Shown here one piece after another: positions 16,759 to 42,898 of a stretch of 64,000 nucleotides of DNA (position 1 is the first letter of the stretch; each line of letters opens with the position of its first letter). Source of the DNA: Alphaproteobacteria bacterium (GTDB lineage: Bacteria; Pseudomonadota; Alphaproteobacteria; Ferrovibrionales; Ferrovibrionaceae); contig CANJGB010000004.1 in assembly GCA_947473805.1 (NCBI GenBank), positions 62,001 to 126,000 of the forward strand. Reading direction: 5' to 3'. The translations under genes and the position numbers were made by a program. The notes beneath the pieces were generated by a model. The model ran no database searches. It saw only the letters and a list, made by a program, of their open reading frames with translations, and was not told the origin of the DNA.

Positions 16759-16799
16759 CGACATGTGTTTTGGCTTCGGTCGAGCTCGTTGGGGGGGCC

Positions 16800-19187
16800 A
16801 TGCCCGACCATTATAAGATTGCCGTTGTTGGGTCTGGACCGGCTGGGCTAAGCGCCGCTGCGCATGCGGCGAAGCTCGGTGTCAGCCACGTGCTGCTCGA
16901 AAAGACCGACCACGCCTCCGACACCATCTACAAGTACCAGAAGGGCAAGCTCGTCATGGCAACGCCAGACGTGCTTCCGCTGCGTTCGGACTTCACGTTC
17001 GAGCGCGGGAACCGCGAGGGTATTCTGGATGCTTGGAACCAGGGTCTCGATGCCCTGAAGGTCAACATTCGCTACAATGCGGAAGTGACCGCGATCAAGG
17101 GCCAGAAGGGCGCTTTCGAGATCACCCTGCGCGACAAGTCGGTCGTCACTGCCGAGGCGGTGGTGCTGGGCATCGGCCTGCAGGGCAACCTCAACAAGCT
17201 GCCGATGCCGGGTGCTGAACAGCCGCATGTCCAGTATCAGTTGGATGACCCCGACGAATACGAGGGCGAGCACATCATCGTCGTCGGCGCCGGCGACGCG
17301 GCGATTGAGAACGCCGTCGCCCTGTCGAAGCAGAACACCGTCGCGATCATCAACCGTTCGGCCGAATTCGCCCGCGCCAAGCAGGGCAATATCGACCTGA
17401 TCCTGGCCGCCATCGAGAAGAAGCAGGTCGAGTGCTATTACAGCGCCGCGCCGCTTAAAGTTAACGCCAAGACCATGGTGCTGAAGACCGCCGACGGCGA
17501 GGCGGAGGTGCCGGCCGACCGCATCATCGCCCGTCTGGGCGCCACGGCGCCGCGCAAGTTCGTCGAAAGCACCGGCATCGCTTTCCCGTCGCCCGATCCG
17601 AAGTCGCTGCCCGAAGTGAGCGCGACCTACGAATCGAACGTTCCCGGCATGTACATCGTCGGCGCCCTGGCCGGCTGCCCGCTGATCAAGCAGGCGATGA
17701 ACCAGGGCTGGGAAGTCATCGAGTATATCGAGGGTCGCCGCCCGGACCCGGCCGACGAACCCCTGCTGCGCGAGCGGTTCAAGGGCCTCGGCGACGTTTC
17801 GGTCAGCGACGTGCTGGCAACGATCCGCGCCAATGTTCCGATCTTCGCTGAACTCAACGCGCTGATGCTGCGCGAGTTGATGATCGATTCGACGATCCAC
17901 CGGCTGAATCCGGGCGACATCGTCTTCAAGAAGAACGACTACACCAACACCTTCTTCACCATCGTCGAGGGTGAAGTCGGCATTCAGATCAATCCGGCCG
18001 ATCCGAACCAGCTCGTTGCGCTGAAGCAAGGCGAGTTTTTCGGGGAAATGGGACTGATCTCGGGCCGTCGCCGCACCGCTACTGTGGTTGCCAAGTCGGC
18101 GTGTATCCTTATCGAGACCCAGCGCCGCTCGATGATCAAGCTGATCAAGTCGGATGCCTCGGTAAAACGTGTGATGGACCAAACGGCCATTATCCGCCAG
18201 ATCCAGACCCATCTCGCGCCGCACGTGCCGAAGGAACAACTGGTCGATGTGGTGTCGACCGCAACGATCGAAAGCTTCTCCGCCGGCGATACCCTGTTCA
18301 ACCAGGGCGAAAAGGGCGATTCCGTCCACCTGATCCGCAATGGCTCGGTGACCATCTCCCGCCGCATCGGCGGCCGCGATACCGTTCTGTCCTACGTGCC
18401 CTCGGGCAATTACGTCGGCGAAATGGCGCTCCTGTCCGACCTGCCGCGCAGCGCGACGGTCAAGGCGGCGGTCGAAACGGAAACCATCAAGATCGATGGC
18501 GCTGCGTTCAAGTTGCTGCTGCAGCGCGCGCCGACGCTGAAGACCGAGATTGAGGAAACGTTCCGCGAGCGCGTCAAGCAGAACGAGATGATGGAAGGCC
18601 GGCCCGATGCCGGCGGCATCATCCAGTTCCTGGTCGAACAGGGCATCGGCGAGGGCACCGACGTCCTGCTGATCGATGAGTCGCTGTGCGTCCGCTGCGA
18701 CAATTGCGAGAAGGCCTGCGCCGAAACGCACCATGGCATTTCCCGTCTCGACCGCGAAGCCGGGCCGACGTTCGACTCCATCCACGTGCCGACCAGCTGC
18801 CGCCACTGCGAACACCCGCACTGCATGGCCGACTGTCCGCCGGACGCCATTCACCGCGCGCCCAATGGCGAGGTGTTCATTGAGGACAGCTGCATCGGCT
18901 GCGGAAACTGCACGCGCAACTGCCCCTATGGCGTGATCCAGCTCGCGGTTCAGCCGGAGCCGAAGCCCGGCCTGTTCCAGTGGCTGTTCTTCGGCATGGG
19001 CTTCGGCCCCGGCGAGGACATGTCGCAGCGTCACGTACCGCATCCAGGCAAGGCCAAACACGCCGTGAAGTGCGACATGTGCAAGGATATCGAGGGAGGC
19101 GCCTCTTGCGTGCGCGCCTGTCCGACCGGCGCCGCGATCCGCGTCAGCCCGGCGGAGTTCATGTCCCTCGCGACCTTGGCGCGGTAA
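16800..19187 (+). CDS. Flavoprotein fused to two cyclic-nucleotide-binding domains and a four-cluster ferredoxin
   Basis: The 795-residue cytosolic protein has three modules. Residues 1-330 are an FAD/NAD(P) oxidoreductase: IAVVGSGPAGLSAAAHAA binds FAD, IIVVGAGDAAIENAVAL binds NAD(P)H, and there is no CxxC disulfide as in thioredoxin reductase. Residues 355-480 and 495-600 are two cNMP-binding domains with intact phosphate cassettes (FGEMGLISGRRRTATV and VGEMALLSDLPRSATV). Residues 625-795 hold 16 Cys in four groups (CVRCDNC, CRHCEHPHCMADC, CIGCGNC, CDMCKDIEGGASC), as in DmsB/NrfC-type subunits with four [4Fe-4S] clusters. It probably passes electrons from NAD(P)H to the membrane protein encoded next, under cAMP/cGMP-like control. 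I chose ATG 16800 over the in-frame TTG at 16770 because a G-rich stretch precedes it. Confidence 0.92.
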   Translation: MPDHYKIAVVGSGPAGLSAAAHAAKLGVSHVLLEKTDHASDTIYKYQKGKLVMATPDVLPLRSDFTFERGNREGILDAWNQGLDALKVNIRYNAEVTAIKGQKGAFEITLRDKSVVTAEAVVLGIGLQGNLNKLPMPGAEQPHVQYQLDDPDEYEGEHIIVVGAGDAAIENAVALSKQNTVAIINRSAEFARAKQGNIDLILAAIEKKQVECYYSAAPLKVNAKTMVLKTADGEAEVPADRIIARLGATAPRKFVESTGIAFPSPDPKSLPEVSATYESNVPGMYIVGALAGCPLIKQAMNQGWEVIEYIEGRRPDPADEPLLRERFKGLGDVSVSDVLATIRANVPIFAELNALMLRELMIDSTIHRLNPGDIVFKKNDYTNTFFTIVEGEVGIQINPADPNQLVALKQGEFFGEMGLISGRRRTATVVAKSACILIETQRRSMIKLIKSDASVKRVMDQTAIIRQIQTHLAPHVPKEQLVDVVSTATIESFSAGDTLFNQGEKGDSVHLIRNGSVTISRRIGGRDTVLSYVPSGNYVGEMALLSDLPRSATVKAAVETETIKIDGAAFKLLLQRAPTLKTEIEETFRERVKQNEMMEGRPDAGGIIQFLVEQGIGEGTDVLLIDESLCVRCDNCEKACAETHHGISRLDREAGPTFDSIHVPTSCRHCEHPHCMADCPPDAIHRAPNGEVFIEDSCIGCGNCTRNCPYGVIQLAVQPEPKPGLFQWLFFGMGFGPGEDMSQRHVPHPGKAKHAVKCDMCKDIEGGASCVRACPTGAAIRVSPAEFMSLATLAR

Positions 19188-19193
19188 CAGCAC

Positions 19194-20081
19194 ATGGCCG
19201 TTCAGGACACCGTTGGAACCCATCAATCGATGCTGGTGTACCGGAATTTCCGGTACTTCAAGTGGGCAGCGCTGCTGGTTCTGGCGTCCGTCATCGCCTA
19301 TTGGCTGCACCAGCCGTTCGCCGGCGTGCCCAATGGCGGCACATGGCTTGGCTATGTCCTCGGCACGATCGGCGCCGGCATCATCTTCTGGCTGACTTAT
19401 CTCGGCATCCGCAAGCGGCGCTACGGCATCCACCGCGAGGGCGCCGGCAAGGACAAGCGCAAGGACGGCATCAAGCTTGAGGACTGGGTTTCAGCCCATA
19501 TCTATTTTGGCCTAAGCCTGATCATCGTCGCGACGCTGCATACCGGCTTCCAGTTCGGCTGGAACCTGCACACGCTGGCCTATGCGCTGATGATTATTGT
19601 CATCGTCAGCGGCATTTTCGGTGTCTACGCCTATATCCGTTATCCGCAGCTGATGACCGAAAATCGCCGCGGCCTCACGCTCAACAACATGCTGGCCCAG
19701 GTCGCCGATCTCGACAAGGAGATGCGCGGCATCACTATGAGCATGGGCGAGAACATCAACGCCGCCGTGCTGCGCGCCGCCCAGGAAACCCGCGTCGGCG
19801 GCAGTTTCGGCCGGATGCTCGCCGGCCAGGATGCCAGTTGCCCGACCACCGCGGCCCGCGTGCTGGTCGAACAGGTGGCGCATCAGCCTCATGACGACGA
19901 GGCGGCACTGCGTCGCCTGCTGTCATTGCTGGTGCGCAAGGAGGAACTGCTGCGGCGCGCCCGGCGCGACGTGCAGTTCTCCGCGCTGATGCAGATCTGG
20001 CTGTTTGTGCATGTACCGCTGTCGTTTGGGTTGTTGGCTGCGCTGACGGCTCATATCGTCTCGGTCTTCTTCTACTGGTAG
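19194..20081 (+). CDS. Membrane protein with two HX13H helices, predicted bis-heme cytochrome b
   Basis: The 295-residue protein has about five hydrophobic segments: two near residues 22-65, two in the middle (WVSAHIYFGLSLIIVATLHTGF and LAYALMIIVIVSGIFGVYAYI) and one at the C-terminus (WLFVHVPLSFGLLAALTAHIVSV). The first middle helix and the last helix each carry two His separated by exactly 13 residues, the spacing that binds two b hemes in ferric-reductase and NADPH-oxidase-type domains. A soluble loop of about 110 residues with Cys lies between. It starts 6 bases after the flavoprotein, so it is the likely membrane partner that carries electrons to quinone or to the periplasmic hemes. Confidence 0.72.
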   Translation: MAVQDTVGTHQSMLVYRNFRYFKWAALLVLASVIAYWLHQPFAGVPNGGTWLGYVLGTIGAGIIFWLTYLGIRKRRYGIHREGAGKDKRKDGIKLEDWVSAHIYFGLSLIIVATLHTGFQFGWNLHTLAYALMIIVIVSGIFGVYAYIRYPQLMTENRRGLTLNNMLAQVADLDKEMRGITMSMGENINAAVLRAAQETRVGGSFGRMLAGQDASCPTTAARVLVEQVAHQPHDDEAALRRLLSLLVRKEELLRRARRDVQFSALMQIWLFVHVPLSFGLLAALTAHIVSVFFYW

Positions 20082-20085
20082 CGCC

Positions 20086-21873
20086 GTGAAGATCTTCGTC
20101 AGCAATATCGTCAGGAAGGCACGCGGCGGCGTCGCTTATCGCGACAATGCGGTCGATGCACCGGCGGTGCGGTTCGGTCGTGGCGCCGATTGCGAGGTTC
20201 ACCTTCCCGATCCGCGCGTCCTGCTCAAGCACGCGACCCTCGAGGCGCGGGCCGGCGGCGTGTTCATCGACGCTAGCCCCAGCGCCGAGGTCACCGTAAA
20301 TGGTGCCGCGGCGACGGCCGCCAAACTCAATGTCGGCGACAAGGTCGGTCTCGGCCCTTATCAGCTGGAAGTCCTGGCCCCGCCCGAAGGACAGGAATTC
20401 GCCGTTTCGCTGGAACTGGTCCGTCCGCTTGGCGACGATCTCGACGAACTGAAGCAGCGCTCGTCGGCGCGCATCGACCGCGTCGGCTTCGGCAAGCGCG
20501 GCTGGTCGTACGGCCTGTTTGCAGTCATCGCGCTGGTATTCTTCCTGTGGCCGCTGGTGACGTTCCTCACCAGGCCGGCAGCTGATCACGCCTCGCTGAT
20601 GCAGGGCGATTCACGTGGCTTTATCGCTGCCAGCGACAAGCTGTGGCTCTCGGGCGAGATCTCGGGGCCGCACAAATTCTTCGGCGACAAGTGCGAGGGC
20701 TGCCACCAGAGTTCGTTCGTCCAGGTCAAGGACGAGGCCTGCATTTCGTGCCACGAGAAGGTTACCCACCACGTCGACGTGGTGAAGTTCCCCGATGCAT
20801 CCTTTGCCGCTGAAAGCTGTCAGAGCTGCCACAAGGAACATAATGGCGTCCGCGAGGCGGTGCTGCGCGACCAGAACTTCTGCGCCTCGTGCCATGCAAC
20901 GATCGAGAAGACCGCCGCAGCAGCCAACCTGTTGAACGCCACCGATTTCGGTCGCGACCATCCGCAGTTCCGCCCGACCGTCGTGACCGATCCGGTTGCC
21001 AAGAAGCTTGAGCGCATCTCGCTGGACTCGAAGCCGAAGGAAATGTCCGGTCTCAAGTTCCCGCACGACAAGCACCTGAACCCCAACGGCGTGCGCAGCC
21101 CTGACGCGGCGAAGCCGGTAGTGATGAACTGCGAGAATTGCCATGTGCCGGAGAGCGGTGGCGTGCTGTTCAAGCAGGTCAGCTTCGAGGCCAATTGCCA
21201 ATCGTGCCACTTGCTGCAGTTCGAGGCCCAGGCGCCCGAACGCCGGATGCCTCACGGCAAGCCGGCCGAAGCGCTGCAGGCGATCAAGGATGCCTATTCT
21301 TCCATGGCGCTGCGTGGCGGCTATAACGCGCCAACCGCACCGGAAGTCGTGCGCCGCCGTCCGGGCCTGCAGCCCCTGACGGCGCCGGAACGGCTTGAGG
21401 CCTTGGCTTGGGCCGACAGCAAGGCGAACGAAACCATCGCCGGTCATTTCGGCAAGGGCCGCTGCGCCGAGTGCCATGTCATCTCCGAAGGTGCGACGCC
21501 GACGACATGGGACGTCGTGCCCGCGACGGTCGCCAAGCGCTGGCTGACCAAGGGCCAGTTCGACCATGGCAAGCACCGCGACGTCGCTTGCGAATCCTGC
21601 CACGGCGCGCGTAATTCCAGTTCGGCCCAGGACGTGCTGCTGCCGGGCATGAAGGCGATGAAGTCGGTCGATACCCTGGCCGCACCCGACATCAAGGGTT
21701 GCCAGGATTGCCATGGCGGCGAACGCGCCGCTAACAAGGTGCCGTCGACCTGCATTTCCTGCCACCAGTTCCACGTCGATGGCATGCCGCCGATGCGAAA
21801 GGGCAAGTCGGCTTCGCTCCCGGTAGGTCATCCTGTGAACGTCGCCTTTACCGGCGGTTCCGCGCGCCAATAG
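20086..21873 (+). CDS. FHA domain-transmembrane-decaheme cytochrome c
   Basis: The 595-residue protein starts at GTG, 4 bases after the previous stop. Residues 20-95 form an FHA domain (VRFGRGADCEVHLPDPRVLLKHATLE, then VNGAAAT), which normally reads phosphothreonine in the cytosol. A transmembrane helix lies at about 138-162 (YGLFAVIALVFFLWPLVTFL). The remainder, predicted periplasmic, carries ten CXXCH motifs: CEGCH, CISCH, CQSCH, CASCH, CENCH, CQSCH, CAECH, CESCH, CQDCH, CISCH, plus free His for axial ligation. The spacing resembles cytochrome c3/c7-type chains. Joining a phosphopeptide reader to a multiheme wire suggests gated docking of the cytosolic electron donor, which is inference. 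Confidence 0.9.
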   Translation: MKIFVSNIVRKARGGVAYRDNAVDAPAVRFGRGADCEVHLPDPRVLLKHATLEARAGGVFIDASPSAEVTVNGAAATAAKLNVGDKVGLGPYQLEVLAPPEGQEFAVSLELVRPLGDDLDELKQRSSARIDRVGFGKRGWSYGLFAVIALVFFLWPLVTFLTRPAADHASLMQGDSRGFIAASDKLWLSGEISGPHKFFGDKCEGCHQSSFVQVKDEACISCHEKVTHHVDVVKFPDASFAAESCQSCHKEHNGVREAVLRDQNFCASCHATIEKTAAAANLLNATDFGRDHPQFRPTVVTDPVAKKLERISLDSKPKEMSGLKFPHDKHLNPNGVRSPDAAKPVVMNCENCHVPESGGVLFKQVSFEANCQSCHLLQFEAQAPERRMPHGKPAEALQAIKDAYSSMALRGGYNAPTAPEVVRRRPGLQPLTAPERLEALAWADSKANETIAGHFGKGRCAECHVISEGATPTTWDVVPATVAKRWLTKGQFDHGKHRDVACESCHGARNSSSAQDVLLPGMKAMKSVDTLAAPDIKGCQDCHGGERAANKVPSTCISCHQFHVDGMPPMRKGKSASLPVGHPVNVAFTGGSARQ

Positions 21874-21963
21874 TTTCCCGCGCGGCAACCGCCACGCCGG
21901 GAAGCCGATGTTTCGCCAGGGGCAGGGGTGCCAGCGGTGGCGGCACGCCCTACATGATTGCCG

Positions 21964-22564
21964 ATGTCGGACCGTTCATTCAAATCGCTGCTGGCGGACG
22001 TGCGCGCCTGCCGGCTCTGCGCCGACACCCTGCCCTTGGGGCCGCGCCCGGTTCTGCGCGCCAGTCGCACCGCGCGGTTGTTGATCTGTAGCCAAGCGCC
22101 GGGCACCAAGGTCCACGAATCCGGCCTGCCGTTCAACGATGCGTCCGGCAATCGTCTGCGCGATTGGCTGGGCATGTCGAGAGAGATTTTTTACGACGAG
22201 GCGAAGGTCGCCATCGTGCCTATGGGTTTTTGCTATCCGGGCCGCCTGCCACGCGGGGGGGGGGGGCTGCCCGCCGCGGCCGGAATGCGCGCCGCAATGG
22301 CGTTCGCGCATTTTGCCTCACCTGCACTCGGTCGAGTTGACCTTGCTGGTGGGCAGCTATGCCCAAAACTGGCATCTCGGCGATCGGATGAAACCCACGC
22401 TGACCGATACGGTCGCCGGCTGGCGGGACTTTCTGCCGTCCTATCTGCCCCTGCCGCACCCGTCGTGGCGCAATTCGGGGTGGATACGCCAACACCCGTG
22501 GTTCGAGGCCGAGCTGCTTCCTTATCTGCGCAACCGGGTTGCTGATCTGGGGCTCGGTCAATGA
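21964..22564 (+). pseudogene. Uracil-DNA glycosylase family protein, frameshifted at a G12 tract
   Basis: Two frames join into one protein of about 200 residues. The first (21964 onward) gives CRLCAD, LLICSQAPGTKVHESGLPFNDASGNRLRDWL and IVPMGFCYPG. The second gives PPRPECAPQW, LLVGSYAQNWHLG, LPLPHPSWRNSGW and HPWFEAELLPYLR, ending at 22564. These are blocks of the Fe-S-containing uracil-DNA glycosylase superfamily, including GQAPG-like and HPS-like motifs. The break falls in a run of 12 G at 22255-22266; removing one G restores the frame. It may be a sequencing error, a true disruption or a phase-variable switch. The stop overlaps the next ATG (ATGA). Confidence 0.8.
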
Positions 22565-23565: not shown

Positions 23566-23769
23566 CTTCCGCCGGGAGCGGGATTCAGGCGGACATCTGA
23601 TTTGCCTTTCCTAAACAGTTGCCTAACCGCCACCAGTGAACGGAAAAAAGCCGGACTTTTGATCGACATAGGTTCCCCGACCCCCTGAGATTTGTTAGTC
23701 TGTGTTGGGCGCGCGACTATCCGCGCCGGCGGGCATTGGACTGCACAACTTGGAACGGGTGGCATCCGC

Positions 23770-25146
23770 ATGAATGTCGGAACCAAAGTGAGCGGAACCT
23801 CTCGGTTCCTTCGGCAATATCGCGGCTTACTTCTCGCGGTAGGGACGCTGGCTGCCGTTTTCGGCCTGGCCGGGTCCGCCGGGGCGCAGACGCTGCCGCA
23901 GAATGCCTCTGACATCCATCTGGGCGTCGGCTCGTGCGCCGGTTCGACCTGCCATGGCGCCGTGACGCCGTGGCGCAATTCGACCGTGCTGCAGAACGAA
24001 TACGTCACCTGGCAGACCAAGGACACCCACGCGAAGGCCTATGCCACGCTGCTGAACGATGCGTCGAAGCGCATCGCGAAGAACCTGGGCCTGCCCAATG
24101 CGCACGAGGCGAAGATCTGCCTCGATTGCCACGCGAACAACGTATCCTCCAACCTGCGCTCGAAGACCTTCCAGCTCTCCGATGGCGTCAGCTGCGAGGC
24201 CTGCCACGGCGGCGCAGTGCGCTGGCTCGGCATCCACATTTCCGGCGTCGCTAACCACGCGCAGAACGTCGCGGCCGGCATGTACCCGACCGAAGACCCC
24301 TTGGCCCGTGCGAAGCTTTGCATGTCGTGCCACATGGGCACCGCGGACAAGTTCGTCACCCACAAGATCATGGGTGCCGGCCATCCGCGTATGCCGTTTG
24401 AGCTGGACACCTTCACCGCGACCCAGCCGGCGCACTATCGCATCGACGACGACTATCGTGCCCGCAAGAAAGTGGCCGATCCGGTCACGACTTGGGCCAT
24501 CGGCCAGGCCGTTGCGGTGCAGACCACGCTGGACGGCCTGACCGATCCGAAGCGCAACCGCCAGGGCATCTTCCCGGAACTGGTGTTCTTCGATTGCCAT
24601 GCGTGCCACCACCCGATGTCGAACGTTCGGTGGGAAGCGCGCGCCAGCACGGGCCTGGGCCCGGGCGTGCCGCGCCTAGCCGATGCCAACATGATTATGC
24701 TGCGCATCATCGTCTCGCAGCTGGAGCCGGCTTTGGGCCAGCGCATGCTGGAACAGTCGCGTGCCTTGCATGCCTCGACCGACCAGGGCACCGAGGCCGT
24801 GGCCGCCGCCGCCCGCAACCTGCGCGAAACGGTGACGCCGCTGATCGCCCGTCTGGCGCAGCAGCGCTTCGACGCGCCGCAGATGAACGCGCTGCTCCGC
24901 GGCGTGCTGCGCGAAGGCGTCAACCGCGAGTATGTGGACTATGCCGCCGCCGAGCAGGCCACCATGGCCCTGTCGGCAATCCTGACCGCCATGCGGCGCG
25001 CCGGGCATATCGATGAGGCCAAGTTCAAGGCCTACAACGAAGTGCTCGACCGCGCCTACAAGGCGGTCGAGAAGGACGAGGAGTTCCGCCCGGCGAACTT
25101 CGTGGCGGCGCTCAACGCGCTCGATCAGGTTGCGTCCCGGAACTAA
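23770..25146 (+). CDS. Periplasmic five-heme cytochrome c (c554-like)
   Basis: The 458-residue protein has a signal peptide ending near AGSAGAQT. Heme motifs are an unusual CX4CH (SCAGSTCHG, near residue 56), then CLDCH, CEACH, CMSCH and CHACHH. The opening resembles the cytochrome c554/c-prime superfamily. The C-terminal 150 residues (after LGPGVPRLADANMIML) lack hemes and look helical. It is predicted to be a soluble periplasmic electron carrier between the FHA-decaheme protein and outer-membrane components. A 204-base gap precedes it, so it may have a separate promoter; I saw no clear one. ATG chosen over an upstream in-frame extension because the signal peptide starts there. Confidence 0.88.
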   Translation: MNVGTKVSGTSRFLRQYRGLLLAVGTLAAVFGLAGSAGAQTLPQNASDIHLGVGSCAGSTCHGAVTPWRNSTVLQNEYVTWQTKDTHAKAYATLLNDASKRIAKNLGLPNAHEAKICLDCHANNVSSNLRSKTFQLSDGVSCEACHGGAVRWLGIHISGVANHAQNVAAGMYPTEDPLARAKLCMSCHMGTADKFVTHKIMGAGHPRMPFELDTFTATQPAHYRIDDDYRARKKVADPVTTWAIGQAVAVQTTLDGLTDPKRNRQGIFPELVFFDCHACHHPMSNVRWEARASTGLGPGVPRLADANMIMLRIIVSQLEPALGQRMLEQSRALHASTDQGTEAVAAAARNLRETVTPLIARLAQQRFDAPQMNALLRGVLREGVNREYVDYAAAEQATMALSAILTAMRRAGHIDEAKFKAYNEVLDRAYKAVEKDEEFRPANFVAALNALDQVASRN

Positions 25147-25811: not shown

Positions 25812-26312
25812 TCAGAGGCTGTCCGGATTGCCCGGGCGCATGTCGCCGACGATCAGCGCCCGCACATTTGCACCATGGCCGGCGACGACCGGACCCGATA
25901 CCCGCAACTGCATGCAGAAACGGTCGCGCTTCAGGTGCGGCCAGGGCGCCACGACGCACAGCGTGTGCTGCTCGTCGTCGATGGTCCAGCTGCCAACATC
26001 CACCGCCTCGTACTTCCCATCGACCTCGTTCCAGCGGCGCACGCGCGCGCTGTGATCGGCGTTGAGATACACGATGGCGTGTTGCGAGCCGATGGACTGC
26101 GAACCTCGTCCCTTGGCCAGGACCACGGGCTCGTCGAACGTCACATTGGCATTGAAGGAAAAGGTTTTGCCGCTGAGGCTTTCACTCAGCTTGGCAACGG
26201 GCTTTTCCTCCTTCGGCGCGGCTGCATGACCGCCGTGGTCGTCGGCCGCAAAAGAGACCGGTATCCAGGCGCCCAGCAGAAGCGCCAGCGCGGCGAGCGG
26301 GACGATTCTCAT
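25812..26312 (-). CDS. Small secreted protein, last gene of the minus-strand redox operon
   Basis: The 166-residue protein has a signal peptide ending VSFAADD, then a short His-containing DDHGGHAAAPKEEKP stretch that could bind metal. The rest is beta-rich (KTFSFNANVTFDEPVV, HAIVYLNADHSARVRRW, GSWTIDDEQHTLCVV) with two Cys that may pair. I do not recognise a family. The ATG overlaps the stop of the giant cytochrome (ATGA), so the two are coupled, and a role in maturation or docking of that cytochrome is possible. It converges with the IalB-like gene, 7 bases apart. Confidence 0.75.
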   Translation of the reverse strand: MRIVPLAALALLLGAWIPVSFAADDHGGHAAAPKEEKPVAKLSESLSGKTFSFNANVTFDEPVVLAKGRGSQSIGSQHAIVYLNADHSARVRRWNEVDGKYEAVDVGSWTIDDEQHTLCVVAPWPHLKRDRFCMQLRVSGPVVAGHGANVRALIVGDMRPGNPDSL

Positions 26313-29300
26313 TTCGGGGTCGCCTCGGCCCGGGTGGCGCGCGCCGGCGGCACGAACCCGTTGGGCTCGGGCGTGTCGGTCACGGTCCACAGCTGCTTGC
26401 GCGCATCCAGATAGAACTGGCGCTGCTCGTCGAGGGTGAAGGGCCGCGAACCCAGGCGGCCGAACACGGCGATCTGGCCACCGGTTTCATCCACGCCGCG
26501 GTCGCGGTCCAGACCCTTGGACAACGAAAGTGCCGGCTGTGCGGTTTCCTTCCAGGCGATCAGCTCCGGCTTCGGATCGGGGCTGAAGCCATAGAGGTTC
26601 GGCTGCGATTCCGGCGAGGTCAACTGCACCACCTTCAGGCCGCCAGCGCCATCGGCCACGTAGGCGAACAGCGAGGCGTTGGTCGTGCCGACGATAACGT
26701 CATAGGCGTCGGCGATGCGGCCATCGGCGGTGAACTTCGCGTAGATCTTCGGCTGATCGGGGCGCTCGACATCGACGATGACGAGGCCTTCCTTGCCGCC
26801 GGCGACGTAGGCGAAGGTCCGGGCGAGATAGACGCGACGGGCATCGGCCAGCGGAACCAGTGCGCTTTCAATTACCTGCGGCTTTTCGGGATCGGTCACA
26901 TCGACCACCGACAGGCCGCGCGGCTCGGTCACCCACAGGTAGCGGAACTGCAGGGCCGTGGCCCGGGCATTGGCGACCGGAATGGTCGTGACCGTCTTCG
27001 GGTGCAGCGGGTCGTTCATGTTCAGCACCACGACGCCGCGCGGGGTCGAGATATAGAAGTAGTAACCCGCGATGGTGATGTGGGTGGCGCCCGTCAGCAC
27101 GCCGCCCTCGTTCCAGGTCAGCGCCCGCTTCAGGAAGTTGTTGCGCGGCTCGCCGTCGACCAGCGTATCCACATTGACCACGACCAGGCCTTCTTCGGAG
27201 TCGGTGATGAAGGCGTAGTCGTAGATCGGGTGGAACGGCTGTTCCTCGTTGTCCTGGTACATCAGCTTGCGCGTCGCTTCGTCCTTCTTCTGACGCTGCG
27301 GCGCGATCGCCTGGTTGGTCGGCAGGGCCATGCAGGTGGCGTTCTTGGTGGCCACATGGGTGTCGTGGCCCAGGGCGCTGAACGGGCCGGTCAGGATGCG
27401 TTTGGAAATGCCCTTGTTGGCGATGGCCGAGACGTCATAGGCGATGAAGCCGTTCGTGCCCTCGGCCACGAACAGGTACTCACCGCGCAGCTGCAGACAG
27501 GCGGCACGACCGCCGGAGTGCCTGAACGAACCCAGTGCCGCGGTTTCCGGCAGGCGCCGGTTACGGTCCTGATGTTCCCTGTACCAATCCGGATAGGCGT
27601 AGCGCTGCAGGTAGCTGCCGATAACCGCCTGGGGCTCGTCCCACTCGGTGACCTGGATGGCCTCGACGCCCTTCTCGACGCCCAGCCAAGCGTTGTATCC
27701 GACGAAGTTCACGAAGTTGGTCCCGTGCAGCAGCAGCTGGGCCATGATTGCGTTGTTGTCGTTGTTCTTCGAGACGTGGCAATCGGTGCAGGTCTTGGTT
27801 TCCTCGCGCCGCTCGGTATGCGGATAGTGCGGTGCGAACGCCTGGCTGGAATAGCCTGATGCGGCGATAGGCGGCTGCTGGATGTAGATGCGTTCGCGGT
27901 TGATGTTGGTCGACGACAGGATCAGTGCCGAGGTCGAGCGTATCGGCGCGATGGTGTTACCCTTGGTCGTCTGGTGACGGCCAAGCTGGAACATGTCATC
28001 GCGCGCAACCTGCGGATTGTAGGTCGCGAAGTTGCGGGTCTCGCCGCCCTCGTACTTGTGCCGCTCAGTCTTCCAGTTGGCCTGGATAGGCAGGTGGCAG
28101 CCGGCGCATGACGTTGTCCATGACAGATGGCAGGTGAAGCACTCCATCTCTTCTTCACCGTGGGCGCGGTCTTCCTTCTTCACGCCGGGGCCCCACTTGA
28201 TCGGGCCATCGGCGATGTGGTTGTCCCACTTCGCCGTCAGCTTGGCGCGCGCCGCCTTCTCGTTGTAGCGCGGGTTGTCCGGGTTGACGGTGTCCTTGAC
28301 CAGGCTGACTTCCCACTCGCGTTGAGAGTCGAGCGCCGAGCGCTGGATCAGCTTGCAGTCGCGGTCCTGTGTTGCCGGCAGGCCGCATTCCGTGCCGCGC
28401 CATTCGAAGCGGCGGCGGCCGTCCTGCAGGCGCAGCAACGACAGGTCGCTGCCACCCGGCGGGGCGGCGGGGCCGGACGTGTGCAGCGTCGGATAGATGC
28501 TGGCCGTGCCGTGGCAATCGCGGCAGCGGATTTCGATGGCGTTCGCCACCTCGCCGTACAGATAGCCGCTGCCGTGCGAGTCCTGCGCGAAGTGGCAGTC
28601 GATGCACTGCATGCCGGCATCGACGTGAATCGACGACAGGTGAACTGCCTTCTTGAATTTCTCGCGGTCGTTTTCCGCGACCTTGCGACCCTGGGCATCG
28701 AGCAAATTGCCCTTGCGGTCGCGCTTGAAGATGGCGCGGAAGTTCCAGCCGTGGCCGTGATAATCGGCCAGTTGCACGTCGGTCTGGTCGGGGTTCATCT
28801 CCCAGACCTGCTTCACGAACTCGACGTCCGACCAGTTGCCGCGGATGACCGCTTCTTCCGGGTTACGCTCGAGTGCTTTGTGCATCTCTTCGTTGTTCAG
28901 GTACTTCTGCTTGGCCGGGAACATCTTCGGCGAACCCGCCTCGTAGTCCCACATGGTGTAGCCGAGCATCGAGTTGAGGAAGATGTTCGGCTGGTGCATG
29001 TGGCAGTTCATGCACTGCGCGGTCGGGATCGCGCGGGTGAACTCGTGGCGGACCGGGTGGCCGGACTCGTTCTTCGGGATCGTCGGATCGGTCGAGAAGC
29101 TCTTGCCGTCATTGCCGTAGTTCGACCAGAAGCCCGAATGGCGCGGGTCGCGGTCGTTGGCGTAGACGACGTGGCAGCCGCCGCAGCCCGAGGTGCGGTA
29201 GTCGCCCGGCTGGTCGTTGGTGCCCATGAACCACATGAACGGATCGTTCAGGCGGGTTTTGGTGATGTTGATGACCGGCACCGCGATGCGCAGGCCCGTC

Positions 29301-30199
29301 GCCGGGCCGCGGTTGGACTGGCGGATGTCAGGACGGCCGTTTTCCTCAAGGCGCTGGATCGAGCCCGGGCCGCCGGTCGCGATGTTCGGCAGGCCGATTT
29401 CGGGGAACTGGGTCGAAATGTTGCGCCCGCCGCGCTCGAACACACGGAAGATGTCGCCTGGCAGGGTAACTTCCCACGCCGGCAGCGGGGCGAATTGCGG
29501 CAGCACGCCGCGGGCCTTGGTCATTTCTGGGGTGATCTCGCCCGGGCTCTTGATCAGCGCCGGCTCGCCCTCGCGCGTATAGGCCTCGCCGATGATGTAG
29601 TTCTTGAAGGGCAGAATGCCGTTGTTGTACGAGGCGCCGCCCCACAGCATCGCGCCCGTCGCCATCAAGCTGCGCTCGGCCGCCTGGATGATCGGCAGGT
29701 GGCAGGCGCCACACGCCTCGCGCGCGACTCGGTAATCCGACGGATTGACGAAGCGGACATATTCGGGGCTTTCCCGGTTCAGCAGCGTGTAGCTGCGTTC
29801 CGGGTTGGCGCTGCTCGGGAAGTGCCAGGCATGCGGATAGCGCGGCAGGACGTGCGCCTGGTCGCGGACCTTGGCGTAGTTCTCGACGCCATCCTTGGCG
29901 CTGACACTGATCTTGGCGTCGCCGCCATGGCAGTCGGTACAACCCAGATTGACGGCCGGGTTGGCGTGCATGGTGAGGCTGTCAGTGGTCGTGTGGCACG
30001 ACAGGCAGCCGGCGCTCTTTTCGCGCGCGGCATCCGGACTCTGCATAAACGGCGCGTCCGGCGCTGTGGTGTAGTTGATGTTCTGGGGCTTCTCGCCTTC
30101 AGACGCAAACAAGGGGGCGGTCGCAAGAAGGGCGATAGCAGCACACGCGGCCACCAATACTGCCCTAAGACCGATACGACGTTCCAGCATGCCCCCCAT
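26309..30199 (-). CDS. Decaheme cytochrome c with LVIVD-type repeats (1296 aa)
   Basis: A signal peptide (ending APLFASEG) leads to a large secreted protein. Ten CXXCH motifs lie between residues 63 and about 805: CLSCH, CTDCH, CGACH, CGGCH, CMNCH, CIDCH, CRDCH, CFTCH, CAGCH, CTDCH, separated by long loops. Residues about 890-1190 form repeats of the LVIVD type (GEYLFVAEGTNGFIAYDV, YAFITDSEEGLVVVNVD, YLWVTEPRGLSVVDVTDP, FAYVAGGKEGLVIVDVE), which probably fold as a beta-propeller. Such size and architecture suit a periplasmic or surface electron-transfer protein. It starts 18 bases after the outer-membrane barrel gene. Start could be ATG 30199 or 30190; a G-run precedes the second. Confidence 0.92.
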   Translation of the reverse strand: MGGMLERRIGLRAVLVAACAAIALLATAPLFASEGEKPQNINYTTAPDAPFMQSPDAAREKSAGCLSCHTTTDSLTMHANPAVNLGCTDCHGGDAKISVSAKDGVENYAKVRDQAHVLPRYPHAWHFPSSANPERSYTLLNRESPEYVRFVNPSDYRVAREACGACHLPIIQAAERSLMATGAMLWGGASYNNGILPFKNYIIGEAYTREGEPALIKSPGEITPEMTKARGVLPQFAPLPAWEVTLPGDIFRVFERGGRNISTQFPEIGLPNIATGGPGSIQRLEENGRPDIRQSNRGPATGLRIAVPVINITKTRLNDPFMWFMGTNDQPGDYRTSGCGGCHVVYANDRDPRHSGFWSNYGNDGKSFSTDPTIPKNESGHPVRHEFTRAIPTAQCMNCHMHQPNIFLNSMLGYTMWDYEAGSPKMFPAKQKYLNNEEMHKALERNPEEAVIRGNWSDVEFVKQVWEMNPDQTDVQLADYHGHGWNFRAIFKRDRKGNLLDAQGRKVAENDREKFKKAVHLSSIHVDAGMQCIDCHFAQDSHGSGYLYGEVANAIEIRCRDCHGTASIYPTLHTSGPAAPPGGSDLSLLRLQDGRRRFEWRGTECGLPATQDRDCKLIQRSALDSQREWEVSLVKDTVNPDNPRYNEKAARAKLTAKWDNHIADGPIKWGPGVKKEDRAHGEEEMECFTCHLSWTTSCAGCHLPIQANWKTERHKYEGGETRNFATYNPQVARDDMFQLGRHQTTKGNTIAPIRSTSALILSSTNINRERIYIQQPPIAASGYSSQAFAPHYPHTERREETKTCTDCHVSKNNDNNAIMAQLLLHGTNFVNFVGYNAWLGVEKGVEAIQVTEWDEPQAVIGSYLQRYAYPDWYREHQDRNRRLPETAALGSFRHSGGRAACLQLRGEYLFVAEGTNGFIAYDVSAIANKGISKRILTGPFSALGHDTHVATKNATCMALPTNQAIAPQRQKKDEATRKLMYQDNEEQPFHPIYDYAFITDSEEGLVVVNVDTLVDGEPRNNFLKRALTWNEGGVLTGATHITIAGYYFYISTPRGVVVLNMNDPLHPKTVTTIPVANARATALQFRYLWVTEPRGLSVVDVTDPEKPQVIESALVPLADARRVYLARTFAYVAGGKEGLVIVDVERPDQPKIYAKFTADGRIADAYDVIVGTTNASLFAYVADGAGGLKVVQLTSPESQPNLYGFSPDPKPELIAWKETAQPALSLSKGLDRDRGVDETGGQIAVFGRLGSRPFTLDEQRQFYLDARKQLWTVTDTPEPNGFVPPARATRAEATPK

Positions 30200-30217
30200 C
30201 CGCAGGCCCTACGGAGT

Positions 30218-32104
30218 CTAGTAGGTAAGAATTGCGTTGAACAGGACCGAATAGAACTGACGCTTGCCACTATCAGGATCGGCAGCAAACAGGTCCTTAA
30301 ACGCCTCGCCACCGAACAGCATGGCGCCCGAGGCGCGGAACACGATGTTCTGGATGAAGGTCGGGCGATAGATCAGCGCGGCCGAAACGTCCCAGCCGAT
30401 GTCCTTGCTGCACAGGCGCGGCAGGGCGCCGAGTGTAGGCTGCACGCCCAGCGGCAGCGCGTCGCAGTCGTTGCCCTGGTTGCGCAGTACAGCGACGACT
30501 CCGGTCTCGTCGAACCACAGGTGGTTGACGTTGGTCGACAGGCGCAGTTCAGGCGTGATGTCGATATCGGCGCCGGCGCCGACCAGGATCAGGCCCGGAT
30601 TGACGAAGTTCGACTGGCCCAGTTCCTTGGATGACCGCAGGCTGTTCAGGATGCCGTTGCGGCCGGACAAGGCCACGCCGCCGCCACCGATCAGCGGCAC
30701 GCCCTGGCGAATCCAGTAGCTGGTGTCCGCACCGGCGAATTGCGGGTTCTCGAAGATCGCGTCGAAGCCGGTTTCCTTGCCGTCGTACGGGTCCTTGTCG
30801 CCCGACTGGTACAGGAAGCTGCCGCGCAGGCGCAGCCAGTTGAAGTCAATTGATGGTTCGGCCGCGAAGAAGAAGGCGCGGATATCGGCCTTCGTGTCGC
30901 GTGTGATCGAGGTGAACTGGCTGGCGTCATTCTGGCCGATGGCGGCGTAGAACTGGTGCGTCAGGTTCAGGCGGCCGAAATGGCCGTCGCCGGCGAGGCC
31001 GAGATAGGTAACGTCGTAATCGTGCGGGCGCTGTACGCCCAAAGCCGAGGGGCGCTCCACGAAGCCGTTGCTGTTAAAATAGCTTTCGCGCTCGCGGTTG
31101 CGGTTGTGGGTGACCGACACCTGCGAGGTGAAGCCGACGACCGGGAAGTCCTGCTTGTAGAGGTTGGCCATGAACACGTCATCGTCGCGCAGGGACTGCG
31201 TGATGTCGTTCAGGCCGGAATTGGTGTCCTTCTCGACGCGGCGGAAGGCGCCGACATTGTATTGCCACAGGTTGTTGTCGCGCGTGCCGAACACGCGGAC
31301 GCCCAGCTGGTTGTCCTGGAACAGGAAGCCACGGAAGTCGGCGGTGATCGGCTGGATGCCGACGCGGAGCGAATCGAAATCGTAGCGGTCGGACACGTTG
31401 CGCAAGTGGTAGTCCACGAACGCTTCCTGGATGCCGATGAACGTATCGGTGCGCTCGTTGCCCTGCTGCGGGTTCACGCGCAGGACCTGGTCTTCCTTGG
31501 CCCAGACGCGATTGTACTGCATGGCGGGCGTCACGCGGAATTCGTAGTCCGGCGGCCGGAACGCGGTGTTGCCCTTGATGAACGAGATCGACGGTATCAA
31601 CGTCGTCACGAACAGGTTCTGGTCGACGCGGCCGAACGCGTCGAGGCGCGAGCGCGAGTCGGCGCTGCCGGTCAGCGAGACCGGCTGCGGGAAGCTGCGC
31701 GGCTCGTAAACGGTGTCCGAGATCACCGACAGGTTGACGAACCAGTCCTCGCCGAAGACCGGCTTGTCGCCCTTCAGCGTGTTCTGGTTATACGGGTCCC
31801 ACCAGCGCTCGCTCAGGCCCAGCGATTCCATGATGCGCCAGCGGTCCGGCACGGGAATCGACTCGCGCGGCAGGATAGGCGAGGGCGGGGGCACCGCCTT
31901 CGGATCGATCGGCGGCAGGGTAGGCAGCGGGGCTTGCGGGCCGGGACGGCGGCGGGTGCCGTCATCTTGCGCCATCAACACGCCGCCACCGGCGTCGCGG
32001 AACTCGTAGAAGTCTTCCTTGCCGGCACGGGCCGGCGTTGACGCCATGCCCAACGCCGCCAGGATGACGGGCAGGGCAAAGGATATGCGGATGAACTTTG
32101 TCAT
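30218..32104 (-). CDS. Outer-membrane beta-barrel protein, possible porin partner of the multiheme cytochrome
   Basis: The 628-residue protein has a signal peptide (ending STPARAG), then a 90-residue periplasmic stretch including a Pro-rich segment (PGPQAPLPTLPPIDPKAVPP). The remainder alternates short polar turns and amphipathic strands, such as YEFRVTPAMQYNRVWAKED and LNLTHQFYAAIGQND, ending in FYSVLFNAILTY with the terminal aromatic typical of outer-membrane barrels. Length suits roughly 20 or more strands. No named family recognised. The ATG overlaps the stop of the HbpS-like gene, and the giant cytochrome follows 18 bases later. This recalls porin-cytochrome conduits, although no MtrB signature was identified. 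Confidence 0.78.
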   Translation of the reverse strand: MTKFIRISFALPVILAALGMASTPARAGKEDFYEFRDAGGGVLMAQDDGTRRRPGPQAPLPTLPPIDPKAVPPPSPILPRESIPVPDRWRIMESLGLSERWWDPYNQNTLKGDKPVFGEDWFVNLSVISDTVYEPRSFPQPVSLTGSADSRSRLDAFGRVDQNLFVTTLIPSISFIKGNTAFRPPDYEFRVTPAMQYNRVWAKEDQVLRVNPQQGNERTDTFIGIQEAFVDYHLRNVSDRYDFDSLRVGIQPITADFRGFLFQDNQLGVRVFGTRDNNLWQYNVGAFRRVEKDTNSGLNDITQSLRDDDVFMANLYKQDFPVVGFTSQVSVTHNRNRERESYFNSNGFVERPSALGVQRPHDYDVTYLGLAGDGHFGRLNLTHQFYAAIGQNDASQFTSITRDTKADIRAFFFAAEPSIDFNWLRLRGSFLYQSGDKDPYDGKETGFDAIFENPQFAGADTSYWIRQGVPLIGGGGVALSGRNGILNSLRSSKELGQSNFVNPGLILVGAGADIDITPELRLSTNVNHLWFDETGVVAVLRNQGNDCDALPLGVQPTLGALPRLCSKDIGWDVSAALIYRPTFIQNIVFRASGAMLFGGEAFKDLFAADPDSGKRQFYSVLFNAILTY

Positions 32105-34077
32105 TTGCCGCGACACGCTTCCTGTTCGCGGGAACCGTTGAACGGTTTGAACGGACACGACACGTAGCGCGGCGCGATGCCCTGGATCTGCCGCTGGTCG
32201 ACGCGGATGCCAGGCGCCGCATTGCCGAGGCCGTTGGTCGCGCCATTGTTCAAGCCGAGAAACGCCGCCATGTCGTCCTGATCGATGCCGTCGCCGGAAA
32301 TTCCGATGGCGCCGACCATCACGCTCCCGCGCCAGATTGATACGCCGCCGGCAAAGATCTGCATGCCGTTCGCCAGCAGCGTCGGGCCGCCGGCGGTCGG
32401 CCGCGATACCTGCGGCGCTGTGCCGGCGGTGACGCCCGTCGCATTGTTGGTGTTGGACACGCAACCGGCTGCCGCGTCGGACAGGGCCGACCCGCCAAGG
32501 CGCGCCACGATGTCCGGCAGGACGAGATCTAGCTGCAGGCCGACATTGAAAGGGCTCCACTGGCCGAATGGCAGGCTCAACGAGCCATTGCCGTTGCCAT
32601 TGACCCCGTCAGGATAAAACGGCCGCGCAAGGTTGCCGATCGAGCGGGCGCCCCAGGCGGTGCCGTCCGCGAAAATGTTGGCGTAGGCGAAACCACGCGA
32701 CGTCGCTATGTAGCGCGCGACGCCGGGAACAGTGAACGCAGCGTTGACCGTATAACCAGCCTGGTTGCCGGCGGAGGTCAGATCAGCTGCCGCGTTCGGC
32801 GTAGCAAGCGCCGGATTGTTTTGCGACATGAACCCGGCGGTACGGGCCTTCTGCAGGCTGACGTCGGTGCCGAACACGGGCGCGTCGGGTGTCCTGGCGA
32901 TACCCAGAACGTTCGCCTCGTTGTCCACGACCGAAACCGTGGCCTCCATGAAGCTGCCAAGCGGCTGGCGAATCGCGGCGCGCGCGCGGTACATGACGAA
33001 CAGCGCCTGGGTGATGATGTTCGTGACTTCCGGCGCCGTGAGCCGGTCACCGGCCGCGAGGGATGCCGCCGCGCTGGCGGTCGGGGGGAAACGATTTGCG
33101 CCCGCGCCATTGTCCAGAATGACGGCGGGAAGGCCGCCGAAAGTGACATTGTCTCGCGAATAGCCGGAGGCCGACGTGCCGTACGCCGTGCCGGCGCGTG
33201 ACGCGCCGGCGGTGAAGTAGCCCGCCACTGCAATGAAGGCGCCGCCCGCCGGTGCCGCCGGCGCCGCCCCCGGGTTGCTGGCAAGATCACGATTGTCCAC
33301 GTCGCTGTACCGCAACGTGCGCCCACCGGCGGAAATACGATACGCCTTGATCTGTTCGGGCGGTTCGAAGCCGGTCTGTCCGGCAATGGCGACCAGTTCG
33401 TCAACGCTACGGTCGTAGTCCCCGATGAAACGGTCGAGCGTGTAAAGGCCATCGGCCTCGACGCCGATGCCGCCGACCACCTGCCCGTTGATATAAAGAG
33501 GCAAGCCGCCGGGATCAGCCGAGAGGCCGAGCGGAGAACGGCGCGGCCCGATGCCCAATGCAGTGCCGGAAGAGGCCGCAGATCCCGTCAGGTCAGAGCA
33601 GGGCAATTGGCTGAACTGCACACCGAATAGCGGGCCGCCGGCCTGGAACGTTTCGCCGACGTTGAAATTCTCCTGCACGATCTGGCTGGCCGTGCGGGTC
33701 GTGAAGGCATTGCCACTCGAGGAGAGATACGCGCCCGTGATGGCTTTCGCGACGGCAGCAAGGCCACGGCCTTCCACGGCAACGCCACCGGTGCCCAGGG
33801 TCACGCTTTCAAGACCGTTGCCCAGCGGTATGTTGCGGCCGGACGTGATCGTGACGGCGTCGCTTCCGCCAGTCATCCGGAATACGCCAAGGATGTTGCC
33901 GACGCGATCAGACACCGCGACCGTGGCCAGAACACCCCGCGCCTGGGCTTCCTGCACCGCCCGGCTGAGGATCAGATCGACTTGGCCAGCCGTGAGGTTC
34001 TGCGCCCGGGCCGGCCCAGAGAGGCAGGCAGCGACTGCGCACAGGGCCAGAAGGGTGGATTTGACCCGCAGTCTCAT
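32101..34077 (-). CDS. Secreted protein with two GlcG/HbpS-like domains
   Basis: The 658-residue protein has a signal peptide ending GPARAQN. The first domain (about 25-260) begins LTAGQVDLILSRAVQEA and has VAVSDRVGNILGVFRM; the second (about 345-640) begins LTAPEVTNIITQAL and has VSVVDNEANVLGIAR and VSLQKARTAGF. Both match the GlcG/HbpS fold, whose members can bind heme or cobalamin-like ligands, and both retain the closing GGVSIWRGSVMVGAIGISGDGIDQDD type of motif. Between them is a Gly/Ala-rich linker. Heme handling would suit its place between a barrel protein and multiheme cytochromes. Ligation residues cannot be judged by eye. Confidence 0.8.
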   Translation of the reverse strand: MRLRVKSTLLALCAVAACLSGPARAQNLTAGQVDLILSRAVQEAQARGVLATVAVSDRVGNILGVFRMTGGSDAVTITSGRNIPLGNGLESVTLGTGGVAVEGRGLAAVAKAITGAYLSSSGNAFTTRTASQIVQENFNVGETFQAGGPLFGVQFSQLPCSDLTGSAASSGTALGIGPRRSPLGLSADPGGLPLYINGQVVGGIGVEADGLYTLDRFIGDYDRSVDELVAIAGQTGFEPPEQIKAYRISAGGRTLRYSDVDNRDLASNPGAAPAAPAGGAFIAVAGYFTAGASRAGTAYGTSASGYSRDNVTFGGLPAVILDNGAGANRFPPTASAAASLAAGDRLTAPEVTNIITQALFVMYRARAAIRQPLGSFMEATVSVVDNEANVLGIARTPDAPVFGTDVSLQKARTAGFMSQNNPALATPNAAADLTSAGNQAGYTVNAAFTVPGVARYIATSRGFAYANIFADGTAWGARSIGNLARPFYPDGVNGNGNGSLSLPFGQWSPFNVGLQLDLVLPDIVARLGGSALSDAAAGCVSNTNNATGVTAGTAPQVSRPTAGGPTLLANGMQIFAGGVSIWRGSVMVGAIGISGDGIDQDDMAAFLGLNNGATNGLGNAAPGIRVDQRQIQGIAPRYVSCPFKPFNGSREQEACRGK

Positions 34078-37257: not shown

Positions 37258-38943
37258 TTGCCCGTGCCCGGCGAACGTGACGGCGATATAGGCCCCGTCG
37301 CGGCCCGTCTCATGGAACGCAAGCGCGTCGGTCCGGGGGACCTGGACCGCGCGCGCCAATTGCTCGGCACATCAGGTTCGACCATCGAGGCGATGCTGAG
37401 CCGCATGGGCCTCGTCAGTGACACCGAATTGGCCGCGACGATGGCCGAGGTGTTGAAGTTTCCGCTCGCCACCGCTGCGGACATGCCAGCCACGCCGCCG
37501 CTGCGCGACCGTGTCGGCGTCGACTTCTTGCGCAACTCGCATGTCGTGCCGTTGCGCGATACGCCGTCTGGCCTTGACCTTGCCATGGCAGACCCGCGCG
37601 ACGACTTTGCTGTGAACGCGCTGCGCATGATCGTGCACAAGCCCATTCGCCGCCACGTCGCGGCGCTGGGGGATATCGAGCGTGCGCTGGACCGCTGGGC
37701 TGCCCCCGCGGCGGGTGTTGCGGCGACGCGTCGGGCGACCGGCGAGGATTTCGATCTCGTCGCTGATGCCACCAGCAATGCACCGGCCATCGCCTTCGTG
37801 CAGAAGTTGATCTCCGACGCGGTGCGTCGGCAGGCCTCCGACATTCACATCGAACCAATCGATGGCGGCCTCGAAATCCGGCTCCGCATCGATGGGCGGC
37901 TGATTCGCGTGGACGATCCGCCGGCCCATCTCGCAGACGCGGTGCTGGGGCGCGTCAAGGTCCTGGCGCGCCTCGATGTGGCAGAGCGGCGCCTGCCGCA
38001 GGATGGCCGCGTGCGCGTTGCGGTCGATGGCCGCGAAATCGATGTCCGCATTTCGACCGTGCCGGCAATGGCGGGCGAATCCATCGCGCTGCGCATACTC
38101 GACCGCTCGCACCTGACGCTCGATGTCGAGGCTTTGGGCTTTGCCGGTCCGATCGCGGCGGAACTGACCCGCCTCGGCGACCGGCCGCATGGCATCATTC
38201 TGGTGACCGGCCCCACGGGCTCGGGCAAGACCACGACCCTGTATGCCATGCTTTCGCGCCTCAGCCGGCCCGAGGTGAAGGTGCTGACGGTTGAGGACCC
38301 GGTGGAGTTTCGCCTCGCCGGGATCAGCCAGGTGCAGGTCCAGCACGGCATCGGCCTGGGCTTCGCGCGCGTCATGCGCTCGTTCCTGCGCCACGACCCG
38401 GACATCATGATGGTCGGCGAGATTCGCGACGGCGAGACGGCGCGCATCGCGATCCAGGCCTCGCTCACTGGCCACTTAATTTTGTCGACGCTGCACACGA
38501 ACGATGCGCCCGGCGCCGTTACGCGGCTGATGGACATGGGGATTGAGTCGTTCCTGATTTCGGCGACCGTGAACGGCATCCTTGCTCAGCGTCTGGTGCG
38601 GACGCTTTGCACCGATTGCCGCGAAAGCCGGCCGGCAACGCCGACGGAAAAGGCGTACCTGAAAGAGTCTCTGCCCGATGCGGCGCCTCCCGACGCGCTG
38701 TGGCACGCGCGCGGCTGTCCGCGCTGTAACGGTTCCGGCTATCGCGGACGGGTGGCCATCGGCGAACTGCTGGTCATGGACGACGAGGTCAAGTCGCTGG
38801 TATCGGCCGGCGCCGGCCAGGTCGCCATTCGCGATGCCGCGCTGCGCAAGGGAATGACGACGCTGCGCGGCGACGCGCTGCGGCACGTCACATCGGGTCT
38901 CACGTCGCTGGAAGAAGTGACGCGGGTTCTGCCCGAATCCTGA
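37258..38943 (+). CDS. gspE: Type II secretion ATPase GspE
   Basis: This cytosolic hexameric ATPase drives pseudopilus assembly. The 561-residue protein has an N-terminal GspE-N domain (ARQLLGTSGSTIEAMLSRMG), the N2 domain with ASDIHIEP, Walker A GPTGSGKTTT near residue 318, the Asp box LTVEDPVEF, Walker B-like DIMMVGEIRDGETA and the His box TGHLILSTLHTND. A four-Cys zinc site (CTDC...CPRC) marks the T2SS/T4P group. The TTG at 37258 with AAGGA upstream is favoured; GTG 37264 is also possible. Confidence 0.95.
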   Translation: MPVPGERDGDIGPVAARLMERKRVGPGDLDRARQLLGTSGSTIEAMLSRMGLVSDTELAATMAEVLKFPLATAADMPATPPLRDRVGVDFLRNSHVVPLRDTPSGLDLAMADPRDDFAVNALRMIVHKPIRRHVAALGDIERALDRWAAPAAGVAATRRATGEDFDLVADATSNAPAIAFVQKLISDAVRRQASDIHIEPIDGGLEIRLRIDGRLIRVDDPPAHLADAVLGRVKVLARLDVAERRLPQDGRVRVAVDGREIDVRISTVPAMAGESIALRILDRSHLTLDVEALGFAGPIAAELTRLGDRPHGIILVTGPTGSGKTTTLYAMLSRLSRPEVKVLTVEDPVEFRLAGISQVQVQHGIGLGFARVMRSFLRHDPDIMMVGEIRDGETARIAIQASLTGHLILSTLHTNDAPGAVTRLMDMGIESFLISATVNGILAQRLVRTLCTDCRESRPATPTEKAYLKESLPDAAPPDALWHARGCPRCNGSGYRGRVAIGELLVMDDEVKSLVSAGAGQVAIRDAALRKGMTTLRGDALRHVTSGLTSLEEVTRVLPES

Positions 38944-38954
38944 ACGCTCCACCC

Positions 38955-40166: not shown

Positions 40167-40173
40167 TCGCGCC

Positions 40174-42828: not shown

Positions 42829-42898
42829 GGGGCCGCCAGCGGTTGCGCCATGCGGGACCAGCGTATAGTTTCCGACCGTCCATGATCGCGCACCGAAA

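Follow-up and report, generated by a model that had tools for sequence, protein, structure and literature searches.

A decaheme cytochrome with an apparently non-canonical FHA domain, encoded in a conserved, putative electron-transfer gene cluster

Organization of the locus

The window (the whole 64,000-nucleotide stretch of alphaproteobacterial DNA that was analysed) encodes a 595-residue protein in which an FHA domain is joined by a transmembrane helix to a ten-heme cytochrome (Table 1). Its reading frame begins at a GTG codon, with the preceding gene ending four bases before it, and it is the third gene of a conserved unit in which a flavin, two-cNMP-domain and 4Fe-4S protein (its true start is probably M11, at position 16800) is followed by a cytochrome b and then by the FHA-decaheme cytochrome. 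The cytochrome b harbors two WX3HX13H motifs and an SGXXG motif, located at residues 98, 269 and 139. A second linked module (26309-34077) lies on the opposite strand in the window, and is collinear after the unit in most relatives; its porin, which matched no Pfam family, was recognized from a structural model as an AlgE-like barrel. The conservation of these genes was examined at 84 loci, corresponding to 80 from a genome scan, three from Sphingobium plasmids, and the window itself.

Table 1. Features of the FHA-decaheme cluster in the window, with the number of loci at which each linked gene was found; loci without a linked gene include loci cut by contig ends.
Feature	Coordinates	Strand	Evidence or occurrence
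Flavin (Pyr_redox, YpdA-like), two cNMP-binding domains, 4Fe-4S ferredoxin	16770..19187	+	81/84 loci
Cytochrome b / inner-membrane protein, two WX3HX13H and SGXXG	19194..20081	+	82/84 loci
FHA, one transmembrane helix, decaheme cytochrome (595 aa)	20086..21873	+	ORF, CXXCH count, Pfam, AlphaFold2 model
FHA domain, residues 1-112 (Pfam core 28-90)	20086..20421	+	G31, R32 and H49 kept; Ser replaced by L46; SxNGT lost
Single transmembrane helix, residues 137-162	20494..20571	+	R138 and P156 invariant; W/Y at 142
Ten-heme domain, residues 190-563	20653..21774	+	10 CXXCH and 10 other invariant His
c554-like cytochrome, 4 CXXCH and 1 CX4CH	23692..25146	+	39/84 loci
LVIVD-repeat decaheme protein, about 1300 aa, signal-peptide-like start, related to Geobacter ExtM	26309..30199	-	58/84 loci
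Outer-membrane beta-barrel, AlgE-like, about 18 strands, C-terminal aromatic beta-signal	30218..32104	-	62/84 loci
HbpS-like haem-binding protein	32101..34077	-	64/84 loci

Several additional genes were noted in and around these clusters. In the window, a gene of the uracil-DNA-glycosylase superfamily (21958-22561, + strand) is divided over two overlapping frames that each correspond to a different half of PF03167, which we attribute to a frameshift or an assembly error. A series of type II secretion-like reading frames (GspE-, GspF- and GspH/J/K/L-like by reading; 37258-43978, + strand) lies beside the module of the LVIVD decaheme and HbpS-like proteins; a GspE relative is also found near the cluster at L020 and L044, and is absent from the other loci. 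At two loci (L131, 10923-17688; L136, 2068-7978), genes resembling CcmH, CcmF, CcmG, CcmE and CcmC by reading adjoin the cytochrome b gene, as if the cluster brings its own heme-attachment set.

Architecture and predicted topology of the FHA-decaheme protein

The preliminary description of this gene, made from the sequence alone, proposed a cytosolic FHA domain, a single helix at about residues 138-162 and an external chain of ten hemes, and that architecture was supported by the subsequent analyses. The FHA profile PF00498 matched residues 28-90 (28.8 bits, where the cut-off is 20.7; E 1.7e-6), residues 196-561 were matched by several multiheme families of the cytochrome c3/c7 type, and the protein was found to contain exactly ten CXXCH motifs and a sole hydrophobic peak, at residues 143-161. 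An AlphaFold2 model built from a 60-sequence alignment placed residues 2-111 in an 11-strand beta domain with the FHA beta-sandwich (pLDDT 91-98 across the block, and near 97 overall), followed by one helix at residues 137-162 and by a heme region composed largely of loops and short helices (pLDDT mostly 75-95). When the model was compared with the PDB using Foldseek, nearly all of the 50 matches listed were FHA domains, with GarA, OdhI and Rv1747 at the top; the assignment of the N-terminal region to the FHA superfamily is thus made by both profile and predicted structure.

Among 60 homologs, the invariant histidines that lie outside the CXXCH motifs also number exactly ten (196, 229, 252, 292, 327, 330, 390, 494, 497 and 563), and the pairing of ten such residues with ten heme-attachment motifs leads to a prediction of ten bis-His hemes, which would appear to fit electron transfer rather than catalysis. 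Attachment of c-type heme is a periplasmic process, and since the protein possesses only one helix, the FHA domain is predicted to be cytoplasmic and the hemes to lie outside the cytoplasm; R138, where the helix would meet the cytoplasm, is invariant (79/79) and supports that orientation.

Distribution of the protein and loss of its FHA domain

The same order of FHA domain, helix and hemes, which the preliminary description had suggested should be sought in other genomes, was found in 79 full-length homologs (with ten CXXCH motifs in nearly every complete one), indicating that the arrangement did not arise by chance. Of 397 Pseudomonadota genomes that were sampled evenly, 18 (about 4-5%) contained the protein, and the FHA part was retained in 17 of those 18 carriers.

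The homologs that truly lack the domain (L105 and L131-L133) form one clade, with a support of 99, nested within FHA-bearing relatives in a tree of the cytochrome part, and a single loss is therefore the simplest reading; two further sequences that appear to lack it in the tree (L052 and L072) have an incomplete N-terminus and were not counted as losses. In the FHA-less clade the cytochrome persists, as does the greater part of the cluster. Relocation of the domain to a separate gene in FHA-less genomes was considered and rejected, since a search of six genomes gave no PF00498 match.

Wherever the FHA domain was present, the flavin/Fe-S protein was also present in every case checked, including four loci (L135-L138) at which it is encoded further along the same contig. 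The genome of L105, which lacks both the FHA domain and the flavin/Fe-S protein, raised the idea that the domain might serve as an obligate dock for that protein; this idea was weakened by genus g239 (five genomes), where the FHA domain has been lost and the flavin/Fe-S protein is retained, once visibly at the opposite end of the same cluster. Recruitment of that protein thus does not strictly depend on the FHA domain, which in g239 would appear either to be helpful rather than essential, or to have been replaced by something unrecognised. Across the family, the mean pairwise identity is 29% for the FHA domain, 40% for the cytochrome part, 46-49% for the cNMP domains and 69% for the Fe-S part.

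The phosphothreonine pocket and the search for a kinase

The phosphothreonine pocket of FHA domains is formed by an arginine (of a Gly-Arg motif), a serine (of SxxH) and an asparagine (of NGT). The preliminary description noted that the serine following the binding loop was replaced (in LLKHATLE) and cautioned that binding might be altered, and it was this caveat that proved to be its important part. In an alignment of 79 sequences representing a diverse family, G31 and R32 are invariant (R32 in 79/79), so that the arginine of a phosphothreonine reader is in place, and D42 is nearly invariant. The SxxH motif corresponds in the window protein to L46-x-x-H49, and that column contains serine in 0/79 homologs and threonine in 5/79. 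The SxNGT loop is represented by SAEVT, and the column of its asparagine is mostly occupied by Ala, Leu or Gly, with Asn in 5/79. The same pattern (a degenerate SxNGT loop, alongside a retained Gly-Arg motif and structural histidine) was observed in pairwise alignments to GarA and Rv1747. These substitutions suggest that the domain is non-canonical, the residues with which phosphorylated proteins would be read having been lost; the invariance of R32 leaves room for a ligand that is acidic or phosphorylated.

The host genome (about 95% complete) yielded no match to the PF00069 kinase family, with a control that was positive in 11 of 14 genomes, and contained no second FHA protein. In other carrier genomes, a PF00069 kinase was found somewhere in 15 of 20 and in none of the remaining five, some of which are incomplete. 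Within 10 kb of the gene, a tblastn search of 1.4 Mb of flanking DNA with seven kinase seeds located a kinase at only one of 84 loci (L060, about 7 kb away), so that the neighboring Ser/Thr kinase gene for which the preliminary description had proposed a search is essentially a solitary case.

The preliminary description had further proposed that the FHA domain reads phosphothreonine on the electron donor, and that docking is thereby controlled by a Ser/Thr kinase. Although the certain FHA fold, the invariant phosphate-contacting arginine, the presence of true phosphothreonine binders at the top of the structural matches listed and the kinases encoded elsewhere in many carrier genomes could be cited in its favor, the family-wide erosion of the pocket, the absence of PF00069 from the host, the scarcity of kinases near the gene and the survival of most of the cluster in a clade without the domain render this explanation improbable. 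Kinase control of the protein is accordingly graded as unlikely rather than excluded, because the genome searches covered the PF00069 (Hanks-type) family. What stands of the earlier proposal is that the domain may dock a cytoplasmic partner; regulation of that docking by a kinase was left unsupported.

Relationship to known systems

The canonical bacterial FHA proteins GarA, OdhI, Rv1747 and FhaA share with the FHA-decaheme protein the same fold, the Gly-Arg motif and the structural histidine, but differ in that the serine and the SxNGT loop are missing in the 79 homologs, that the host lacks a Hanks kinase, and that the domain is here fused to a membrane decaheme. A precedent is provided by SctD of type III secretion systems, in which a cytoplasmic, non-canonical and phosphorylation-independent FHA domain is carried by an inner-membrane protein with a periplasmic body (PMC4045390). 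That combination of domain, membrane anchor and periplasmic body is shared with the present protein, although its match to the SctD/YscD family PF16697 (30.3 bits) falls just below the cut-off of 33.2, its periplasmic part is a ten-heme cytochrome, and the neighbors recognised beside its gene are of the redox type, none of them belonging to a secretion ring.

The inner-membrane protein of the PCC3 and PCC4 porin-cytochrome clusters was described as bearing two WX3HX13H motifs and an SGXXG motif (He et al. 2017, PMC5566968), and when the present cytochrome b was compared with that published description the same motifs were found. Further similarities include a Fer4_11 (PF13247) protein upstream, several multiheme cytochromes, and an outer-membrane porin within the cluster (an 18-strand AlgE-like model). 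The heme counts published for PCC4 (4, 5 and 10) differ from those found here (10, 10 and 5), and the FHA domain is unmentioned in that publication. The cluster likewise differs from MtrCAB and MtoAB, in that no decaheme of the DmsE/MtrA type was recognised (TIGR03508, 33.3 bits against a cut-off of 192.2) and the barrel is AlgE-like, with about 18 strands. The LVIVD decaheme protein matched the ExtM model with an E-value of 2.5e-21 and is related to ExtM, but is not ExtM itself, since its 75.6 bits compare with a cut-off of 800; we know of no report of Geobacter Ext clusters with an FHA cytochrome.

A search of the literature found no paper that paired an FHA domain with a multiheme cytochrome, none that paired LVIVD repeats with a multiheme protein, and none that discussed the FHA cytochrome of the cluster. 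Cluster 403 of a Gallionellaceae pangenome, annotated as 'Forkhead-associated protein' with 10 heme motifs and present in 27 of 87 iron-oxidiser genomes, appears there as a table row without discussion (PMC10734462). Matched by that annotation and heme count, it is probably the same family, and the FHA-decaheme cluster as a whole is probably a variant of porin-cytochrome electron-transfer clusters, with the fusion probably already in print as a table entry.

A possible role for the FHA domain in an electron conduit

The fixed linkage of the three genes of the unit, together with the predicted domain arrangement, suggests an electron-transfer complex of the inner membrane, to which the FHA-decaheme protein would contribute the subunit that faces the periplasm. 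Electrons would pass, in one direction or the other, along a path made up of the flavin/Fe-S protein, the cytochrome b and the ten hemes, which would continue to an outer-membrane module formed by the porin, the LVIVD decaheme and the c554-like cytochrome. By analogy with SctD, the FHA domain may help to keep a cytoplasmic partner in place, or assist in its assembly, with no need for phosphothreonine; the likeliest candidates for this partner would be the flavin/Fe-S protein and another copy of the cytochrome itself.

We favor, with moderate confidence, an explanation in which the FHA is a phosphorylation-independent docking or assembly domain within a trans-envelope electron conduit, the regulatory input to which may be a cyclic nucleotide. 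The observations counted toward it were the FHA fold, the loss of its pocket throughout the family, the single FHA protein and missing PF00069 kinase of the host, the conservation of the operon, the PCC3/PCC4-type motifs of the cytochrome b, the near-invariant cNMP cassettes, the SctD precedent, the lower identity of the FHA domain relative to the other parts of the proteins, and its constant association, where checked, with the flavin/Fe-S protein. Weighing against it were the loss of the domain in g239, which nevertheless keeps that protein, and the invariance of R32.

In both cNMP-binding cassettes the G-E pair is conserved in 84/84, and the key arginine in 83/84 or 84/84. In sphingomonads, a calcineurin-like phosphoesterase directly follows the operon, and in some records is annotated as CpdA. 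From these two features it is proposed that the upstream protein, whose flavin domain is YpdA-like, serves as a cytoplasmic redox subunit that is possibly controlled by a cyclic nucleotide; judged from these sequence features, such an input on the flavin/Fe-S protein is more likely to represent the conserved regulation than is a Ser/Thr kinase. The fuller model, in which the conduit is gated in the cytoplasm by a cyclic nucleotide that binds directly to a flavin/Fe-S donor (or acceptor) that is docked to the decaheme through a repurposed, phosphorylation-independent FHA domain, is tentative and should be regarded as possible rather than probable.

The most durable alternative is that the domain merely self-associates or stabilises the cytochrome, as a ring or dimer similar to the rings of SctD, and docks nothing else. 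That precedent, the poor conservation of the domain and its one loss without loss of the cluster are all compatible with such a role, but the invariant arginine and nearly invariant D42 suggest that a specific contact has been retained, and the FHA domain has never been seen without the flavin/Fe-S protein; we consider this alternative rather unlikely. That the domain is an inherited relic without a present role is highly improbable, since, although the remainder of the cluster was apparently unaffected by its one loss, all other sampled homologs keep it with its fold intact and with G31-R32 invariant.

The analysis carries two broader implications: (i) that the erosion of this pocket serves as a warning against taking every FHA domain to be a phosphothreonine sensor; and (ii) that the near-invariant cyclic-nucleotide cassettes on a cytoplasmic redox subunit would open the control of envelope electron transfer by a signal to direct testing. 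The cluster also reaches marine and soil groups that are not usually considered electroactive. Six homologs (L022, L026, L031, L033, L037 and L063) whose records bear the names Marinimicrobia, Legionellales, Mesoflavibacter or Klebsiella group with alpha- or gammaproteobacterial sequences, for which mislabelled bins seem a likelier explanation than transfer. At three loci (L011, L012 and L013) the cluster resides on Sphingobium plasmids of about 0.9-1.3 Mb, one of which was typed as conjugative, and the cluster may therefore move between strains.
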